DNA from: a virus
DNA length: 30,184 nt
Virus record (IMG/VR): IMGVR_UViG_3300010883_011338
Location: 1 to 30,184 of that record
Direction: 5' to 3' (one strand)
A program made the translations under genes and the position numbers. Below are positions 1,791 to 25,596 of the stretch, piece after piece. Within the stretch, counting starts at the first letter, position 1, and each line of letters opens with the position of its first letter. The notes under the pieces are model-generated. The model made no database searches. It saw nothing but the letters and a program-made list of their open reading frames with translations, and was not told where the DNA came from.

Positions 1791-2518
1791 TTCAACCCGA
1801 CCCCGCGGCGTTGGGCGTCGATTATGATCGTCGCCACAAGTTCCGGGTAAAAGTCGATTCCGGTCCGCGCGCAAACGTCCAGGGCGATCCGGACGGCTGC
1901 GACGAAATGGTCCGACAATTCCCCGGTCGCGGACGCCGCGGGAACCGGAACCGCCGCCGACGCGGGGGGCGGGGGGATGCTAACGTACTCTACCCCTAAG
2001 CTATCCGGCGGGGCGGATAACTGCGGCGGCGGAAACAAGTCGTCCGGGATCGGCGGGGGCGGGATCGGCGCGGCGGGGAAGTCGGTCGGGTTGGGGGGGG
2101 CCGCGGGGTCGAACGATTGGAACGCGGTCGGGATCGGTGACGGAACAACGGGCGGCGGCGGGGTCGCGACTGCGGCGTTGGGCGGCGGCGGGGTCGCGAC
2201 TGCGGCGTTGGGCGGCGTCGCCCCTATTGCCGGGACGACGGTCGCGCGTCCGGTAACGTATATTTGCGCCTCATTACGGAAGGTCTTTTTTACGACCCCA
2301 GGTCCGCAGAATTCGACCGGCGTCGGCGACGGGGGGAGGGGAATACAATTATTCATTCGCAACCGGACCGCCGAACCGTTGTCCGTATATTTCCCGTTTT
2401 GATAGGTATACGCCCCCCCCGTACTTTCTGCGGTTTCTTGCGCCCAGCATTCCGCGACCCCGGAAACCCGGTCGATTTCGGTTTCGTCCGGCAAAAGCAA
2501 AACGTCCGCGATTGTCAT
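1787..2518 (-). CDS. Proline-rich protein with OB-fold-like N-terminus
   Basis: 243 residues from ATG 2518, which overlaps the upstream ATPase stop as ATGA; the ribosome binding site is AAGGGGGG. Residues about 14-95 alternate short strands and turns (VSGVAECWAQETAE, then GGAYTYQNGKYTDNGSAVRL, then AQIYVTGRATVV). This resembles an OB fold of the nucleic-acid-binding type. Residues about 98-195 are a low-complexity linker rich in Pro and Ala, including a perfect duplication of ten residues encoded by two 30-bp repeats. The last 40 residues form a separate helical tip (HFVAAVRIALDVCARTGIDF). A single-stranded-DNA-binding role is inferred from the fold-like pattern and the neighbours. I cannot assign a named family. 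Confidence 0.5.
   Translation of the reverse strand: MTIADVLLLPDETEIDRVSGVAECWAQETAESTGGAYTYQNGKYTDNGSAVRLRMNNCIPLPPSPTPVEFCGPGVVKKTFRNEAQIYVTGRATVVPAIGATPPNAAVATPPPPNAAVATPPPPVVPSPIPTAFQSFDPAAPPNPTDFPAAPIPPPPIPDDLFPPPQLSAPPDSLGVEYVSIPPPPASAAVPVPAASATGELSDHFVAAVRIALDVCARTGIDFYPELVATIIIDAQRRGVGLK
2151..2210. repeat. Two perfect tandem 30-bp repeats
   Basis: Bases 2151-2180 and 2181-2210 are identical, and a third copy begins (GGCGGCG) before diverging. The unit is a multiple of three, so it adds PPPPNAAVAT-type residues to the linker of the OB-fold-like protein without shifting the frame. Confidence 0.95.
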
Positions 2519-3834
2519 TTAATCCGCCCCCCTTCAATTGTGATATCCGCCCCCGGACCGACGATTTCGATCCAAACTTGGAAGTCGTTATTTATTGCAA
2601 TATCCCGCAAAATTTGCAAACTGTCTTCGTCCATCAGTGACCCGTCGCGGATTAACAGTACGCGAAGGGCCGGGTCGACCGCGATCGACAATAGCGCGCC
2701 GACGCGAATCTGTTCGGCGGACGAACAGTCGCGGAGGGGCGACCCCCGAAAATATATTCCGTCGTCGACTATCGATAATCCGGGGACGACGTCGTCGACC
2801 GCCGATAATAGCGCGACGCGATCCGATCGCAAATCATCGACCGATTGATTCAGCGCGTCCGACGTCGACGAAACCCGTTCGATTTCGTCGTCCGCGATCG
2901 ACAACGCCGTCCGCCATTGCTTCCAAACCCCCCGCGATTCCGCAACGATCAACGCGTCCGAATATTCCGCGACGGTGATCCGGGGGACCGGGTCCAGTTG
3001 TTGCGATTTCGATCGTTCGCGAATCCGGTCCGCCGCCCGTTCGATTTCGTCGGCGATCGCCGCGATTCGCGTTTCGAGCGTCACGCGTTCGGATTGTAAG
3101 TGTTCGATACCGTAACGATCGCGGTCGTTTTCCGCATCCGCCGCGGCGTATTCGTCCCGGTCGGATTGTCGACGCAATAGGTCCGGCAACGGGTCGTCGC
3201 GTTTTAAGTCGGCGCGGGATACGGACGAAAACGCGTCGCGCGTTGCAGTTAATACGCGGACCCGGTCCCGGACGGTTCGGCGGTCTTCGACGGCGACGGC
3301 CAACGCGTCGTCGATCGCGACGATCGATTCCCCAGGCGCGAAGGCGTCGACTAATTGGGATAACTGTTTTGGTCCGAAGGCCCGGATAAAATCGTGCGGG
3401 TCGACGATGCCGATCCCGCCGGACAAGTCGTTTAGGAACGTTTGCGGGGAATCAATATTCCCGGTCGCGTTGGGGTTGTCCGAATCGGGATCAAAAATCG
3501 CCTTGACGGTAACCGTCGATTTGATTTCGGCGGTTTCGTCGGACCGATACCATTTCCGACAAACCAAATATTTCCGTCGGCGATTCCCGTCGCGTCCGTC
3601 TAATTCTATCGACACTTCGGCGAATACCGCGCCGCGGCGTATTACTTCCGCAGCGTCGACCCTACGTCCGGCGATCGGGTAAAGGATAGCGTCCAGGACG
3701 GACGACTTCCCGGCGGCATTTCGACCGCCGATTCGGATAACGTCGCCGATCGCGACCGGATCGATTTCGACGTCGGTGATCCCCTTTATATTTCGGATTT
3801 TAACCCGTCCGATTTTATATCGAAACTCAGCCAT
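2515..3834 (-). CDS. RecF/SMC-like AAA ATPase
   Basis: 439 residues from ATG 3834, with a GGGGGG ribosome binding site four bases away. The start VKIRNIKGITDVEID leads to a Walker A at residues 37-45 (GRNAAGKSS), as in RecF, RecN and Rad50-type proteins. The middle (about 165-330) is charged and helical, consistent with a short coiled coil (ERVTLETRIAAIADEIERA). A degenerate ABC signature (SSAEQIRV) and a Walker-B-like strand (LRVLLIRDGSLMDEDS) follow. The acidic pair normally after Walker B is replaced by RDG...DEDS, a form common in phage members of this group. It overlaps both neighbours, so it probably works with the OB-fold-like and nuclease proteins on DNA ends or forks. It is much shorter than true SMC or Rad50 proteins. 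Confidence 0.82.
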   Translation of the reverse strand: MAEFRYKIGRVKIRNIKGITDVEIDPVAIGDVIRIGGRNAAGKSSVLDAILYPIAGRRVDAAEVIRRGAVFAEVSIELDGRDGNRRRKYLVCRKWYRSDETAEIKSTVTVKAIFDPDSDNPNATGNIDSPQTFLNDLSGGIGIVDPHDFIRAFGPKQLSQLVDAFAPGESIVAIDDALAVAVEDRRTVRDRVRVLTATRDAFSSVSRADLKRDDPLPDLLRRQSDRDEYAAADAENDRDRYGIEHLQSERVTLETRIAAIADEIERAADRIRERSKSQQLDPVPRITVAEYSDALIVAESRGVWKQWRTALSIADDEIERVSSTSDALNQSVDDLRSDRVALLSAVDDVVPGLSIVDDGIYFRGSPLRDCSSAEQIRVGALLSIAVDPALRVLLIRDGSLMDEDSLQILRDIAINNDFQVWIEIVGPGADITIEGGRIK

Positions 3835-4036
3835 TCGACCCCCCGCCGGTTCCGTCCGACCGAATCAGTTCGATATCGGTCCGGGAATATTTCGTCGACA
3901 ACCGGCGCGGACGTATTTTTCCGCCGCGAATCCAGTTCCGCAAGGTCGCCGACGATACGCCCAAAATCCGCGCCGCAGCGTTGCCGTCGATCCATTCGCC
4001 CAGGTCGACCCGTTCGTTCCGTTTCGTTTCGCTCAT
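3827..4036 (-). CDS. Excisionase/MerR-type helix-turn-helix protein
   Basis: 69 residues from ATG 4036. Residues 18-41 (NAAARILGVSSATLRNWIRG) followed by GKIRPRR and a short strand (STKYSRTDIELI) match the winged HTH of the excisionase/MerR-like (HTH_17) group. It overlaps the start of the ATPase gene by eight bases. No integrase is present, so it is more likely a transcription regulator or a replication accessory than an excisionase. It is the first gene after a 201-base gene-free spacer, so it may bind there and control the replication group; that is inference. Confidence 0.75.
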   Translation of the reverse strand: MSETKRNERVDLGEWIDGNAAARILGVSSATLRNWIRGGKIRPRRLSTKYSRTDIELIRSDGTGGGSNG

Positions 4037-4237: not shown

Positions 4238-4825
4238 CTATTCGTCGATTAGTGCGACGTATTGGTCCGCGGCATGATCCAGCCGACCGTCGAAACAGGA
4301 TTTTAACCATGTAACCGGCAACGCCGAATAACCGAAGCGCGGGACGTAACAAATAGGGTCCAGGCGTCGACAGTATATCCGGCGTTGGACGATCGGGAGT
4401 CGGGCGCGCAATAGATCGACGAACGCGCGGTCCCCGACGCGGGGCGCGGCGATAGCGCAAAGGGCGACCGGGGTCGCGGGGGAAATTATCGTCGACGTGA
4501 TAATCGCGACCGCAGCGCCCAGCGAATGGCCGACGATCGCCCCGTCCGGGTTGTCCCGCGCCCAATCCCGGACCGTCGGAAGGATAGCGTCCGCCGCGCG
4601 GAAAAATCCCGAATGTATCCGGACCGGCGTCCCGTCGATTTCGATCCGGGTCCGCGACCGATGCAAATTAAAAAACCAATCCCGGACGCCGTTCGTTCCG
4701 CAGATCGCGAAAACCGGTCCGTCGTCGGTTTCGGTCGTTGTGAATTCTACGCCTTCGACTTCGACCCGATTTTCGTCGCGATAACATTCCGCCGCGCATT
4801 CCGCCAACCGTCGCCAATGTTTCAC
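4238..4825 (-). CDS. Class 3 lipase/esterase
   Basis: 195 residues. I chose GTG 4825, which overlaps the upstream stop as GTGA with GGGG upstream, over a longer frame that would sit inside the neighbour. All landmarks of an alpha/beta-hydrolase of the lipase class 3 family are visible: IHSGFFRAAD before the active site, GHSLGAA with Ser101, the Asp of RRLDPICYVP (Asp156), and a final His in RLDHAADQY (His184). It has no signal peptide or membrane segment, so it is probably released at lysis or acts in the cytoplasm. It follows holin-like and membrane genes, so it may attack host lipids or surface esters during lysis; a tail-associated role is less likely given its position. Its substrate cannot be told. 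Confidence 0.88.
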   Translation of the reverse strand: MKHWRRLAECAAECYRDENRVEVEGVEFTTTETDDGPVFAICGTNGVRDWFFNLHRSRTRIEIDGTPVRIHSGFFRAADAILPTVRDWARDNPDGAIVGHSLGAAVAIITSTIISPATPVALCAIAAPRVGDRAFVDLLRARLPIVQRRIYCRRLDPICYVPRFGYSALPVTWLKSCFDGRLDHAADQYVALIDE

Positions 4826-5154
4826 AATGAAACCCCGCGGATTATTGCTATTGTCGCAGCGATCGCGGCAACGATCGAAACGACCGTTTGCCAATTCGCG
4901 ACCGTTGCCTTTTTCGAAATCGACAGTTCGTCGACGACCTTTGTTGTTTCGTTTGCGCGTCGGTTAAGCGCGTCGACGTCGGTCCGGTACTTCCGGACCG
5001 CGCGTTCCAGGTTCGCGACTTGTACTATTAACCCCGGACGTTCCGGGTTTAGTCCGCGGTCGGGTCCAACCAGGGCGGTCATAATCTTTTCAGTATTATC
5101 GGCGATTTCGCGGACGGCGCGGACTAAATCATTGTCGACCATAGTTTCCCCCAT
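4822..5154 (-). CDS. XhlA/holin-like membrane protein with C-terminal anchor
   Basis: 110 residues from ATG 5154, which has GGGGGG eight bases upstream. A second in-frame ATG at 5142 (GGGGGA nearby) is also possible and would shorten it by four residues. A charged helical region with coiled-coil character (NLERAVRKYRTDVDALNRRA) is followed by one C-terminal membrane segment (TVVSIVAAIAATIAIIRGVSL, about residues 89-109). This order, coiled coil then anchor at the C-terminus, resembles the haemolysin XhlA family that works with holins. It overlaps the lipase gene as GTGA and follows the MscS-like gene after a 96-base gap with no gene. A lysis role is inferred from architecture and context. Confidence 0.6.
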   Translation of the reverse strand: MGETMVDNDLVRAVREIADNTEKIMTALVGPDRGLNPERPGLIVQVANLERAVRKYRTDVDALNRRANETTKVVDELSISKKATVANWQTVVSIVAAIAATIAIIRGVSL

Positions 5155-5250
5155 AATCCGGACCCCCCGCGAGAAGAAAAACGGACCCCCCGGTTTTCCC
5201 CATTGCCCCAGCCACAAAACAACGATAAAAAACCGAAGGGACCGAATCCA

Positions 5251-5586
5251 TTAGGTCGCCCCGTTTGCGTGTTCGTCTAAAACGATTTCCAACGTTAATT
5301 CGACCAATTTTGAATTAGGGACGACCATTTTTTTCGGGTGTCCGTTTGAAGAGTAAAAGGTGCAATAATACAAGCCTATTCGGACAAGTCGAAATTTTCG
5401 TTTCGATATCAAAACGGTTTGATCCAATTTCAGTTCCGCGCCCCTTTTGAACAGAATTCCCGCGACGAAATTTTGGATCGTTGTCCTAAAAATCAACAAC
5501 GCCGCGCCGGTTAAAAACAGCGCGCCGGTTACCCCGGTGATCGCCTGTAATAGGTCTTGTGCGGGGGGCGCATTGATGGTTTCCAT
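5251..5586 (-). CDS. Miniature MscS-like channel domain protein
   Basis: 111 residues from ATG 5586, three bases after the upstream stop; no strong ribosome binding site, so coupling is likely. Residues about 12-33 form one membrane segment. What follows aligns in order with the pore helix and beta domain of mechanosensitive channel MscS: TIQNFVAGILF (compare the pore-lining helix), a short polar turn, LDQTVLISKRKFRLVRIGLY, and a VVPNSKLVE strand that matches the conserved PN(G/S) element. E. coli MscS is 286 residues, so this lacks the first two membrane helices and the C-terminal cage. The usual GD before the beta domain is replaced by LD. It lies between a lipoprotein and a holin-like protein, so a role in membrane permeabilisation is an attractive guess. 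Confidence 0.62.
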   Translation of the reverse strand: METINAPPAQDLLQAITGVTGALFLTGAALLIFRTTIQNFVAGILFKRGAELKLDQTVLISKRKFRLVRIGLYYCTFYSSNGHPKKMVVPNSKLVELTLEIVLDEHANGAT

Positions 5587-5589
5587 TTG

Positions 5590-5856
5590 TTATTGTGTCG
5601 CCAGAGCCGCGAACGGTGCGATCGATTTTATAGCTTCGACGAATGGACCTTCCAAAATGTGCGCGTTGATTTGGACCGTCTTGTCCGCGATCGGATTCCC
5701 GTCCGCGTCGGTTCCGCCGGGTAGATCGATTGTCATATTCGACGCGAATCCGCGAAACGACATTACCCGGTCCGATCCGTCCGCGACGGGTAGTTCCACT
5801 GTCGCGCAGCCGGACCCGAACAGCGCGACGACGATAACGAAGATAATCCTTTTCAT
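5590..5856 (-). CDS. Small secreted lipoprotein
   Basis: 88 residues from ATG 5856, with AAAAGGGGGGA five bases upstream. The first 16 residues are a signal peptide (MKRIIFVIVVALFGSGC), and Cys17 lies in a loose lipobox, with Gly at -3 and -1 and Leu at -5, so lipid modification is likely but not certain. The mature part (about 71 residues) has no recognised domain. It sits between the tail-fibre genes and the MscS-like gene. Possible roles are an outer-membrane spanin-like factor in lysis or a superinfection-exclusion lipoprotein; neither can be shown here. Confidence 0.75.
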   Translation of the reverse strand: MKRIIFVIVVALFGSGCATVELPVADGSDRVMSFRGFASNMTIDLPGGTDADGNPIADKTVQINAHILEGPFVEAIKSIAPFAALATQ

Positions 5857-17180: not shown

Positions 17181-19358
17181 TTAATTAACGTGCTTCGCAG
17201 CGCCGCGATAATCGATCGCCGCCGCGGCGACGTCGCCAGCGACCTTGAAACGAACGCCGTCGACGGCGAATCCGGTTTCTTGTTCCAGCCGCGGGGCGTC
17301 GTTGCCGTCCAGGAAACGGACTTCGACGACCGGCGCGTCCGACGGATTCGCGAATGCAAAGGTAAGATTTGCAGCCGCCCCCGTTAGCGTCGTATTTTCG
17401 ATTTCCGGTTCGGCGACCAGCGTTATCCCCATTTGGGCAATATCGACCGCGCGATTGTTGTCGGCGCGGTCGGTTTCCGCCAACGCTTGAATGTAATAGT
17501 TCTTCAAGGTCGGACCCGTGACGATAACCGCAGGCGACAGGTTCAAATAAGACGCGCCGTCGACGTCCGTTTGTTGCATCATAAGCAATTCAAGCGCCCG
17601 AATAACCGCTTCGGCGGTCGCCTTTGTCGTTACCGCAGTCGTTGCCGCGTCTAGGTTATTGTGCGACGCGTGGAACAGCGCGACCGTGTCCGTTAGTGCC
17701 GAATTCGACAATAGGACTTGGACCGCGAGTTGGTTAATAGTCCGCGCCCAGGCGCGCCCATGCATTGTCGGAATACGATCGAATGCGGACAGGTCGTCGT
17801 TAACGATTGCCTGTCGCGTTATCGAAAGAATTTTTCCGTAGGTCTTTAACTGGATTGATTCCTTTTCTTCGCTTGCCGCGTAGGCTGGGAATTCCGCGCC
17901 TTCGGGGACTTCGGACATAACCCCGGATTCGGACAGCGCCGCAACGCTTGCCGTTTTGAAGTCCGACGCCGAACCGCGCGCGGTCCAGGTCGACCATTGA
18001 ACCGGGGAACTATCATACGCGGCCCGAAGTGTTTTCGCGATTGAATTTTCCAGGATATACGGAAAGTCGCCCGTCGCAGTAAAAGCGCGACCAACAATTT
18101 CCTGTCGCGATCCGGTCGTCGATAGACCGGCATTCCGGACGCAGGATTCCGCAAGGTCGAACAGCGAACGACAATCGACTTTAGCGGCGCGGTGTTCGTC
18201 TTCGTCGGACAGGGTCCGCCCGGTACGCTTTTGGATTTTCGCGATCATGTTCGCGCGACGGTGATCCGCTTCGTCTACGCGGATCGTTGCCGACGGTTTG
18301 TCGTTGGTCGCCAGGACGTCCAACATTTTGGCGCGAGCGACGTCGACGGTTACGTCGGACGAAACGCATTCGTCGCGGACCGTCGCCATTCCCGGCATTG
18401 TGTCGAACGGCGCGAACGCGGCGCGAATGTCGCGGATTCGACCGCGTTCGTCGGCGACTGCGGCGTTTTTGATTGCGCCGGTATCGATAACCGCAGCCGT
18501 CGGAAGTGCCGGTGTCGTTTCGGTTTGATCGTTAGCCGCGCGGAAGGTTACAACGTCCGCGGGGGACATATCCGGATCAATTCCCGCGCCGGTCGCGAAG
18601 GCGCGCGCCAGGTCGCCCGAAAAAGATTCGTCCATGCCGTTGTCGGTTAAAAGTTTGTGAACGTTTGCGTTCATTTTTTCGCCCCTTTGTTTTTGCTTTT
18701 GGTGTTGGTTGTCTGTTTTGTGTGCGCGCAGTTGCGCGTCAATGTCTGCCTGTATAGGCGTTAAGGACGCTTCAAATAGCGTCCAAGTCTTAGCGATCCG
18801 CAACGGTACGTCCCCGGCGGAAAATTCCCGACCGGCAATCGTCGCCGATTCGCCGGGTTCGACGAATGAGATTGCGCGTTCTTCGTATCCGATAGAAACC
18901 CCGGACAGGTGTCCTTCGGTTACCAGGGTCCACGCGTCGTCGGCGGTCGTCGAAAACGTAATCCGCCCGATAAGTTGGTCCCCGAAGACCCGGATATGAT
19001 CGACCGACCCTAATTGGAATTCGGTTCCTTCGGACTTGTGCGAATTCAGCAAGGGGACGCGGCCCCCGGCGGCGGCAACGCGGGACAGGTCGACGCCGGA
19101 CATAATAGTTAAATCGTCGACAGGTTCCCAGCGCGTCGAATCGAACATTCGGACCGCGCGTTCGGTCGCCAGGACCGCGTCGACGGTTCGCGTTTCAGTG
19201 TCCAACGTGGACGGACGCAACGGCGCGTCCGCGCGGTAATTTAAAACCCCGACGGCGTCGGCGGTTCGCGCCGGGACGACATGAATCGTCGCGGTTTGTT
19301 TCGCGCGCGCAATCTGTCGGCGACGGGCGCGACGTTTTTCGGATTTGGTTTTCGGCAT
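17181..19358 (-). CDS. Prohead protease fused to HK97-fold major capsid protein
   Basis: 725 residues from ATG 19358 with GGGGGAACAA upstream. Residues 1-20 are Lys/Arg-rich. Residues about 35-210 are an HK97-type (S78) prohead protease: LLNSHKSEG gives the catalytic His107, and HLSGVSIGYE gives the nucleophile, Ser155 (Ser152 less likely). Residues 229-725 are a full-length major capsid protein: an N-terminal scaffold-like region, then FPYILENSIAKTLRAAYDSS, ILSITRQAIVNDDLSAFDRI and VRFLDGNDAPRLEQETGF, as in Mu-like and related capsid proteins. The join at 211-228 is Gln/Lys-rich. An internal ATG with its own ribosome binding site lies at the start of the capsid part, so the capsid protein is probably also made alone. 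Confidence 0.85.
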   Translation of the reverse strand: MPKTKSEKRRARRRQIARAKQTATIHVVPARTADAVGVLNYRADAPLRPSTLDTETRTVDAVLATERAVRMFDSTRWEPVDDLTIMSGVDLSRVAAAGGRVPLLNSHKSEGTEFQLGSVDHIRVFGDQLIGRITFSTTADDAWTLVTEGHLSGVSIGYEERAISFVEPGESATIAGREFSAGDVPLRIAKTWTLFEASLTPIQADIDAQLRAHKTDNQHQKQKQRGEKMNANVHKLLTDNGMDESFSGDLARAFATGAGIDPDMSPADVVTFRAANDQTETTPALPTAAVIDTGAIKNAAVADERGRIRDIRAAFAPFDTMPGMATVRDECVSSDVTVDVARAKMLDVLATNDKPSATIRVDEADHRRANMIAKIQKRTGRTLSDEDEHRAAKVDCRSLFDLAESCVRNAGLSTTGSRQEIVGRAFTATGDFPYILENSIAKTLRAAYDSSPVQWSTWTARGSASDFKTASVAALSESGVMSEVPEGAEFPAYAASEEKESIQLKTYGKILSITRQAIVNDDLSAFDRIPTMHGRAWARTINQLAVQVLLSNSALTDTVALFHASHNNLDAATTAVTTKATAEAVIRALELLMMQQTDVDGASYLNLSPAVIVTGPTLKNYYIQALAETDRADNNRAVDIAQMGITLVAEPEIENTTLTGAAANLTFAFANPSDAPVVEVRFLDGNDAPRLEQETGFAVDGVRFKVAGDVAAAAIDYRGAAKHVN
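18672..18689 (-). promoter_or_regulatory. Internal ribosome binding site and start for the capsid domain
   Basis: On the coding strand AAAGGGGC lies six bases before an in-frame ATG (18674-18672, Met229). It sits exactly at the join between protease and capsid parts. Starting here gives a 497-residue capsid protein. Comparable nested genes are known for lambda C/Nu3 and Mu I/Z; here the direct evidence is the motif and its placement. Confidence 0.72.
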
Positions 19359-23806: not shown

Positions 23807-24382
23807 TCAAAATGTGACGACCTTACACTGGTAACCGCGCCCCGTCATTTCGTCGAACAGTGCGCGTTGTTGCGTTTCGGAATCGACCGCGATTTCCACC
23901 GAATACGATAGCGCCGGGGGGTCCGGGTCCGGGTCCGGGTCCGGTCCAGGTGCGACGATTTCCAGCAACGCGGCATATTCCACCGGGTCGAAACCGGCGG
24001 ACGCCAATTCGCCGACATCGAAGTCCCGCAGGATATCGGCGACCGCCGCGTCGTCGAATTCCGACAGGTCCGTCGTCCGGTTGTCGGCGATCGCCAGCGC
24101 CGCGCGTCGCCGGTCGTCGGTCCCCAGGTCCGTCCGCCGGACCGCGATCAATTCCGACCCGTCGGAATCAATAACCCGGATCGGAATCCCAAGGTCCGTT
24201 GCTTGTTCGACCGCGCAATTCCCCGCGATTATAACGTCGTCGTTATCTAATAATACCGATCGACCCGCGCCGGAGTCGCGCAACGACGCCCGTACCGCGG
24301 ATTTGTTTCGGTCGGAATGCGTTCGCGCGTTGCGCGGGTCCGGCGTCGGGGGCGTCGTCATGGTCTTTTTCCGGGGGGGCAT
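23807..24382 (-). CDS. Stand-alone ParB-like domain protein (paralogue)
   Basis: 191 residues from ATG 24382, overlapping the upstream methyltransferase stop as TAATG; AAGGAAGG lies upstream. Residues about 12-140 nearly repeat the N-terminal domain of the preceding fusion protein, including SLRDSGAGRSVLLDNDDVII and the AGNCAVEQATDLG motif of phage ParB-like proteins. A run of PDPDPDPDPP links to a different C-terminal domain (SYSVEIAVDSETQQRALFDE to a CKVVTF end), which fits a small domain seen at the end of other phage ParB-like proteins. Its role may be to regulate or complement the fused methyltransferase. It is not a segregation ParB on this evidence. Confidence 0.82.
   Translation of the reverse strand: MPPRKKTMTTPPTPDPRNARTHSDRNKSAVRASLRDSGAGRSVLLDNDDVIIAGNCAVEQATDLGIPIRVIDSDGSELIAVRRTDLGTDDRRRAALAIADNRTTDLSEFDDAAVADILRDFDVGELASAGFDPVEYAALLEIVAPGPDPDPDPDPPALSYSVEIAVDSETQQRALFDEMTGRGYQCKVVTF
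23961..24350. repeat. ParB-domain duplication, copy in stand-alone gene
   Basis: These 390 bases match 25181-25570 at a constant offset of 1,220 with no gap. Most differences are single bases, and most leave the protein unchanged, pointing to a fairly recent duplication kept under selection. Confidence 0.95.
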
Positions 24383-25596
24383 TATTTACCTTCCTTTGTT
24401 GCGGTGTTTCCGGTGAACTCTTCCCAGCGTTTTATAATGACGTCGCAGTAATGCGGGTCGATTTCCATTCCGAAACATTTCCGATCGGTCTTTTCGCAAC
24501 CGACCAATGTCGCACCGGAACCTAGAAAGGGGTCGACGACATTGGTCCCCTTATACCGATCGAAAAACCATAGAACTAAACGCACGGGCTTTTGCGTCGG
24601 GTGCAATCTCTTCTGATCGAATTCCGAGTCCATTCCGAACATTCCCGCCCATTTTATCCGCGCTATATCGCGTTTATGTTTCTTTTTAGACCAACATAAT
24701 TCGAAACAACTTCCATACATTTTGTCCGCGCTTTCCGTTAACCGTTTATCCCAAACAACCCAAGCGCCCCCCGGCGGCAAATGGTCGGAATAGTAGTCGC
24801 AACCGAACCAAAACTGTTCGTCGCAATACTGAAAATAGTCGAAGAAAAAGGTCGGGTCGAACGGACTATCGTCGCCGATTACATTGTCGTATTTGTTGCC
24901 GCCCTTATGATAGCTCCGTTCACCGTTGCGGGGAAGTCGCGACTTCATTCCGCTGAAATCGGCGTCTAAATTCATTCCGTAGGGGGGGTCTGTAAAAACG
25001 ATATCCGCCTTCCGTCCGTCCATAAGTCGATCGATGTCGTCGCGATCTGTCGCGTCGCCGCATAATAACCGGTGTCCGCCCAACAACCATAAATCGCCGC
25101 GGACGACGGTCGGGGTTTCAGTCGATTCCGGGACGTCGTCGTCGTCGATTAACCCGACCTTCGGGTCCGGGTCGACGGTTTCCAATAACGCGGCATATTC
25201 CACCGGGTCGAACCCCGCCGACGCCAGTTCATCCGGGGCGAAGTCCCGCAGGATATCGGCGACGACCGCGTCGTCGAATTCCGAAAGGTCCGTCGTCCGG
25301 TTGTCTGCGATCGCCAGCGCCGCGCGTCGCCGGTCGTCGGTCCCCAGGTCCGTCCGCCGGACCGCGATTAGTTCCGACCCGTCGGAATCAATAACCCGGA
25401 TTGGAATCCCCAGGTCCGTTGCCTGTTCGACCGCACAATTCCCCGCGATTATAACGTCGTCGTTATCCAACAATACCGATCGACCCGCGCCGGAGTCGCG
25501 CAACGACGCCCGGACGGCGGATTTGTTTCGGTCGGAGTGTCGTCGGGCGTTACGCGGGTCCGGCGTCGGGGTCGTTAGCTTTTTTTTCCGGGGCAT
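24382..25596 (-). CDS. ParB-like domain fused to beta-class DNA methyltransferase
   Basis: 404 residues from ATG 25596 (TAATG overlap; AAGGGGGGCAAATA upstream). Residues 12-140 are a phage ParB-like domain (GAGRSVLLDNDDVIIAGN). Residues 165-404 are a methyltransferase: a VRGDLWLLGGHRLLCGDATD start, DIVFTDPPYGM at 199-208 (catalytic motif IV), HPTQKPVRLVLWFF, and VVDPFLGSGATLVGCE at 353-368 (AdoMet-binding motif I). Motif IV before motif I makes it a beta-class N6-adenine or N4-cytosine enzyme. Such fusions are common in phages and are thought to modify phage DNA against host restriction. Target sequence unknown. Confidence 0.92.
   Translation of the reverse strand: MPRKKKLTTPTPDPRNARRHSDRNKSAVRASLRDSGAGRSVLLDNDDVIIAGNCAVEQATDLGIPIRVIDSDGSELIAVRRTDLGTDDRRRAALAIADNRTTDLSEFDDAVVADILRDFAPDELASAGFDPVEYAALLETVDPDPKVGLIDDDDVPESTETPTVVRGDLWLLGGHRLLCGDATDRDDIDRLMDGRKADIVFTDPPYGMNLDADFSGMKSRLPRNGERSYHKGGNKYDNVIGDDSPFDPTFFFDYFQYCDEQFWFGCDYYSDHLPPGGAWVVWDKRLTESADKMYGSCFELCWSKKKHKRDIARIKWAGMFGMDSEFDQKRLHPTQKPVRLVLWFFDRYKGTNVVDPFLGSGATLVGCEKTDRKCFGMEIDPHYCDVIIKRWEEFTGNTATKEGK
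25181..25570. repeat. ParB-domain duplication, copy in methyltransferase fusion
   Basis: Partner of 23961-24350, offset 1,220 bases. It covers most of the ParB-like domain. Confidence 0.95.

Follow-up and report, generated by a model that had tools for sequence, protein, structure and literature searches.

The window, that is, the whole stretch of DNA analyzed here, is a virus record of 30,184 bases that contains terminase, portal, and a protease–capsid fusion. Positions 5251..5586 of its minus strand hold an open reading frame of 111 amino acids with an ATG start and its stop codon at 5251-5253, referred to here as mini-MscS. The preliminary description had placed a 111-residue protein at these positions without naming the strand. 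The frame is real and is found on the minus strand, while the plus-strand frame over the same positions contains many stops. Between close relatives of the gene, pN is about 0.02 and pS about 0.2–0.28. Because pN is far below pS, this shows that mini-MscS is a true coding gene under strong purifying selection.

Immediately upstream lies an open reading frame for an 88-residue lipoprotein (5590..5856, minus strand) with the lipobox SGC at Cys17, whose stop codon is located 3 bases ahead of the mini-MscS start. Its counterpart in another virus contig, L002, is 73% identical and occupies the same place, and relatives are also present in contigs L004 and L006. Downstream, an open reading frame at 4822..5217 (minus strand) encodes a coiled-coil protein of 131 residues or shorter, with a C-terminal membrane helix (hydrophobic segment at 106) and a weak PHROG match to ‘hemolysin’ (E 0.29). 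This is followed by a class 3 lipase (4238..4894, minus strand; PF01764, E 3.8e-14; PHROG 21992, esterase/lipase, E 3.8e-16), for which the listed start is a TTG and the real start probably lies later. L002 likewise carries a lipase after mini-MscS. A 69-residue MerR/excisionase-like helix-turn-helix protein (3827..4036, minus strand; PF12728, E 4.3e-9) comes after the lipase. The lipoprotein and lipase neighbors had been named in the preliminary description and are verified by these data. Its XhlA/holin-like neighbor is not: the gene at 4822..5217 encodes the coiled-coil protein described above, and the XhlA profile PF10779 picks up no gene of the window at E ≤ 1.

Mini-MscS contains a single hydrophobic segment, at about residues 12–34, in agreement with the one membrane segment reported earlier. 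An AlphaFold2 model, calculated for a single chain from 30 phage sequences with no templates, has a pLDDT of 75 and a pTM of 0.50; an earlier model from four sequences was weaker (pLDDT 61). The model shows a membrane/pore helix in two parts at residues 7–49 (5440..5568, minus strand), where helices 7–32 and 34–49, separated by a kink at 32–34, correspond to TM3a and TM3b of MscS. A hydrophobic-moment test gave no clear amphipathic signal in the N-terminal helix. The beta domain follows directly at residues 57–101 (5284..5418, minus strand), with predicted strands at 57–60, 63–70, 74–79, 86–90, and 99–101. A Foldseek search of the model against the PDB returned MscS-family structures for all of the 50 best matches, with E-values from 1.5e-5. 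In VIA, rows 1–46 are all MscS-family (Z 7.5–10.4), and the next row is a Tudor domain (Z 6.5). The model spans residues from about 85 to 187 of Escherichia coli MscS (EcMscS), with an identity to MscS of about 20% in the fold alignments.

The Pfam family PF00924 aligns to residues 35–97 of the window protein over profile positions 1–61 of 68, with 18.1 bits and an E-value of 0.0029. This is below the gathering score of 20.2 bits. The cut-off is passed over the same stretch by four relatives, from contigs L002 (22.6 bits), L009 (22.3), L013 (24.9), and L016 (22.9), and the mini-MscS members of L004 and L006 go undetected in this search. The L002 protein is 64% identical to the window copy and has the same PF00924 boundaries. 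The preliminary description would have given up the MscS assignment on a missing profile match or on a fold lacking the pore helix plus beta domain. Its check does not overturn the assignment: the window protein by itself scores under the cut-off, but relatives exceed it, and the predicted fold contains both elements.

Alignment of 15 mini-MscS sequences with the six E. coli K-12 MscS paralogues, drawn from the MG1655 record, by hhalign gave a P-value of 5e-6 and a probability of 86; in this alignment, the PN motif and the TM3b glycine match up with their counterparts. The smaller of the two mini-MscS subfamilies described below, aligned by itself, gave a P-value of 2.2e-4. When the mini-MscS profile was searched against all PDB sequences, four matches were found at E ≤ 10, and every one of them is an MscS channel (MSL1, H. 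pylori MscS); all four keep the same register, and none is significant individually. A match to BACH2 in the first PDB search was judged to be noise. Since relatives pass the Pfam cut-off, the hhalign P-value is 5e-6, and the fold matches, we regard the PF00924 match of the window protein as beyond chance, and homology of its core to that of MscS as close to certain.

The motifs highlighted in the preliminary description, IQNFVAGIL and VVPNS, are located at residues 37–45 and 88–92. The structural part of its interpretation, a minimal MscS-like unit of pore helix plus beta domain, is borne out by sequence, profile, and fold. Gly43 is equivalent to Gly121 of EcMscS, Asn39 to Asn117, and Pro90/Asn91 to Pro166/Asn167. 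Furthermore, Arg63, Arg66, and Arg69 in the beta domain are invariant in 16 representative mini-MscS proteins and absent in EcMscS, and for this reason the vestibule of mini-MscS may serve another purpose than in EcMscS.

E. coli MscS (YggB) and its paralogues share with mini-MscS the kinked pore helix, the beta domain, and the PN motif. In contrast to mini-MscS, they also contain TM1 and TM2 and a portal-bearing cytoplasmic α/β domain. The tension-sensing helices TM1 and TM2 are absent from mini-MscS, whose model begins at the pore helix, and the protein stops about 10 residues past the last strand, so that the C-terminal α/β cage with its side portals is missing as well. Mini-MscS is therefore a homologue of the MscS core, though not a canonical MscS channel.

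The closest precedent for such a reduction is MscS from Trypanosoma cruzi (TcMscS; PDB 9bgq, 9bgu), which has no TM1 and no C-terminal cage, and which is heptameric, mechanosensitive, and conducting (PMC12334622). TcMscS and mini-MscS both end after the beta domain, and the TcMscS structure aligns to our model with a TM-score of 0.63 (model) or 0.52 (chain) and a VIA Z-score of 9.3 over 92 residues. TcMscS is eukaryotic and keeps TM2 besides TM3, whereas mini-MscS has a single membrane segment and occurs with phage lipoprotein and membrane-protein partners. Conduction by TcMscS has been demonstrated (PMC12334622), whereas the pore of mini-MscS is predicted. Because TcMscS conducts without TM1 and the cage, conduction by a minimal MscS core appears feasible. 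With one helix fewer than the T. cruzi channel, mini-MscS is the smallest MscS-type unit found, and it therefore offers a direct test of which part of MscS suffices for a pore.

Apart from the window, successive profile scans of IMG/VR identified mini-MscS relatives in 48 contigs. Two subfamilies can be told apart. The first comprises the window protein and those of L002, L004, and L006 (111–119 residues). The second is larger, with full-length copies of 127–134 residues, and includes the PF00924-passing proteins of L009, L013, and L016. No relative, and hence no prophage copy, turned up when 84,980 bacterial and archaeal genomes were scanned twice by pattern, a method that distant copies could escape, and a tblastn search of 50,697 deposited phage records with five members as queries gave nothing credible. 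One of the contigs, G005, carries a gene that resembles a tyrosine integrase by eye, and on this basis temperate relatives may exist.

In the second subfamily, mini-MscS is the first gene of a compact operon, followed by a small lipoprotein and a one-helix protein of 50–57 residues. Of the contigs that extend 900 bases or more beyond mini-MscS on its downstream side, 43 in number, the lipoprotein start overlaps the mini-MscS stop in 36 and the one-helix gene comes next in 41; both genes were recognized by sequence motifs, and the lipoprotein pattern may miss variants. In the first subfamily, the lipoprotein gene lies directly upstream of mini-MscS or some genes further upstream. Both subfamilies have a lipoprotein as their constant neighbor. 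No relative of the one-helix gene could be identified in the window. In the literature searched, whose coverage was partial, we found no description of this operon.

A search with the one-helix gene returned 245 stretches. The best 80 were considered, of which 62 contigs with at least 700 bases upstream were assessed. Within this set, mini-MscS is found upstream of the one-helix gene in 28. In 12 others, the place of mini-MscS is filled by an unrelated protein of about 98 residues that combines a membrane helix at its N terminus and a coiled coil (L088 2108-2404, L112 2074-2367, L115 2074-2367, L108 2096-2395, and eight more loci), and none of these 12 contigs has both genes. Several of them contain a lipoprotein between the 98-residue protein and the one-helix gene. 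The remainder of this set, about 23 of the 62, have the one-helix gene with neither mini-MscS nor the replacement, so this gene is not exclusive to the operon. The replacement of one gene by the other in a fixed slot suggests that mini-MscS and the 98-residue protein share a role, of whichever kind.

In sequenced relatives, mini-MscS sits among tail fiber and tail tube genes. This neighborhood, together with the lipoprotein, the small membrane proteins, and the lipase, makes a late membrane role of mini-MscS plausible, from which we infer a role related to lysis. The protein itself has a weak PHROG match to holin (E 0.054). Among its partners, no holin family was recognized: PF10746 gave no match over its cut-off, PF10960 gave none, and other Pfam and PHROG searches gave nothing significant. 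The labels XhlA, T7-type holin, and BhlA, considered for the neighbors, were accordingly dropped after searches with PF10779, PF10746, and PF10960. Holins are diverse, and the absence of a family match does not exclude a holin.

In 20 mini-MscS records, many of which are fragments, no member of five common endolysin families is present, and no recognized lysin lies beside the mini-MscS gene. Four of the 20 records, all from the second subfamily, encode a DPBB/RlpA-like lytic transglycosylase that begins with a hydrophobic segment near its N terminus and is not adjacent to mini-MscS (L060 986-1447, minus strand, in G005; also L070, L071, and L072). This enzyme may be an unusual kind of anchored endolysin. 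Pinholins are heptameric channels of about 2 nm partnered with membrane-anchored endolysins (PMC9636201). Because a pore of this kind needs a membrane-anchored lysin, the DPBB enzyme is compatible with a pinholin mechanism, although it is not proof of one.

On the basis of homology and the model, we propose that mini-MscS is a minimal MscS-type channel subunit consisting of one kinked pore-lining helix and a beta domain. It would most likely oligomerize in the host inner membrane and form a small pore, perhaps as a heptamer by analogy with MscS and TcMscS. Its probable partners, judged by gene order, are the small lipoprotein, joined in the larger subfamily by the 50–57-residue one-helix protein of the same overlapping operon. 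The likely task of this assembly would be the late permeabilization or depolarization of the inner membrane for controlled lysis, in a pinholin-like manner. We favor this late inner-membrane pore tentatively and rate its chances at somewhat less than even. Against it stand the lack of a holin-family partner, the missing endolysin families, the distance of the DPBB gene from mini-MscS and its presence in only four of the 20 records, the invariant arginines that EcMscS lacks, the loss of the TM1–TM2 sensor, and the lack in the window of an identifiable relative of the one-helix gene. The likeness to the pinholin S21-68 of phage 21, a heptameric pore of about 2 nm, would be functional only, both being small phage membrane proteins; no homology is claimed, and the beta domain of mini-MscS is absent in pinholins.

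The channel to which mini-MscS is homologous is known to serve osmotic release, which raises the alternative that the phage supplies a small MscS-type valve, either preventing premature bursting of the wall-weakened cell or aiding its osmotic survival. The conduction of TcMscS, the smallest known natural member, and the need of its organism for it in osmoregulation (PMC12334622, PMC8282336) are in line with such a function. The loss of the tension sensors TM1 and TM2 argues against faithful tension gating, however, and a valve leaves both the coupled lipoprotein and one-helix genes and the slot replacement unexplained. We consider it unlikely.

The constancy of the lipoprotein in both subfamilies would also suit superinfection exclusion or another surface moron function, in which the lipoprotein and the membrane proteins block the entry of competing phages. 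A PHROG search links the lipoprotein of the window weakly to the Cor superinfection exclusion protein (E 0.007), but this match is restricted to residues 1–33, which are mostly lipoprotein signal. Moreover, the genes lie in the late tail-gene region with overlapping starts and stops and do not form an isolated moron, and we hold this reading to be quite unlikely.

All that mini-MscS keeps is the oligomerizing core, the pore helix with the beta domain, as might be expected of a fragment that joins host MscS subunits and blocks the host channel or locks it open. At about 20% identity to MscS, however, mixed rings are not likely, and the strongly conserved phage-specific residues and fixed phage partners point instead to an independent phage complex, which makes a modulator of host MscS improbable. 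The location among tail fiber and tail tube genes could alternatively indicate a small membrane protein carried in the particle or made for genome entry. Lysis genes, too, are commonly located among tail genes, and lipoproteins with export signals are not expected in a virion; a virion or ejection component is thus distinctly improbable. Finally, a coincidental resemblance of a membrane helix and small beta barrel to MscS, which the sub-threshold Pfam score of the window protein and the lack of a PF00924 match for the L004 and L006 members would allow, is barely credible given the conserved PN motif and TM3b glycine and the same register from Pfam with several members, profile–profile alignment, the reverse PDB search, and the fold.

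Returning to the late inner-membrane pore, a wider form of this proposal is that phages of a widespread group have domesticated the MscS core as a dedicated late pore, acting with the lipoprotein and the one-helix protein in a three-component holin- or pinholin-like system in which the slot protein can take its place. We regard this as possible, on the doubtful side. The presence of the MscS core in dozens of uncultured bacterial viruses, usually beside a small lipoprotein gene, suggests that viruses have made their own membrane pore out of a valve that protects the cell. If true, a cellular emergency valve would have been repurposed as a viral tool. In phages with no detected member of the common endolysin families tested, mini-MscS suggests a phage-encoded membrane system whose partners are fixed.

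MscS-like proteins have been reported in other viruses. The protein gp51 of Paraglaciecola Antarctic GD virus 1 (PANV1), a myovirus with a 151-kb genome, has an HHpred match to MscS (6RLD) of 99.7% and no more than a single membrane helix, which is weakly predicted (PMC9239159). By this description, the phage protein resembles mini-MscS. The best viral fold matches in BFVD (A0A516MLU7, A0A1B1IQW5, and A0A516LVN0; E 6.9e-8 to 3.4e-6) are proteins of 104–138 residues, similar in length to mini-MscS and 21–25% identical to it. Among giant viruses, for which MscS-like proteins were reported earlier (PMC6163359), the Aureococcus anophagefferens virus encodes the MscS relative A0A076FGK6 (PMC6163359). 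Unlike mini-MscS, this protein from a giant algal virus has 261 residues and three predicted membrane helices, and no lipoprotein operon has been described for it.

Several further observations concern the relatives. In L043 (4980), L052 (1492), and L077, the automatic choice of start gives forms of 96–99 residues that begin within the helix. For L043 and L052, a full-length frame with an MTN start exists upstream (L078 and L123 are the same contigs). By analogy with dual-start holins, internal starts in genes of this type could give a shorter product.

In L002 (5388-5735) and L004 (5624-5944), a protein with a membrane helix and a coiled coil directly precedes the lipoprotein. The two are 65% identical to each other, and the L002 protein matches PHROG 20984, a family of unknown function (E 3.5e-21). 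The order of this protein and the lipoprotein is suggestive of an i-spanin/o-spanin pair. Proteins with an HDxGY motif (L004 6281-6646 and L006 4320-4730) adjoin the lipoprotein in L004 and L006, and the window has its lipase nearby. A resemblance of this motif to bacterial phospholipase A2, seen by eye, found no support in Pfam, PHROGs, or a PDB sequence search.

Elsewhere in the window, also on the minus strand, the protease and the major head protein are fused in one gene at 17181-19358 (PHROG 4523, E 6.2e-135). Two adjacent genes with ParB-like domains, one of them fused to a DNA methyltransferase, are located at 23807-25596, and 2515-3834 encodes an SbcC/RecN-like AAA ATPase that belongs to a phage family without a name (PHROG 1499, E 2.8e-46).
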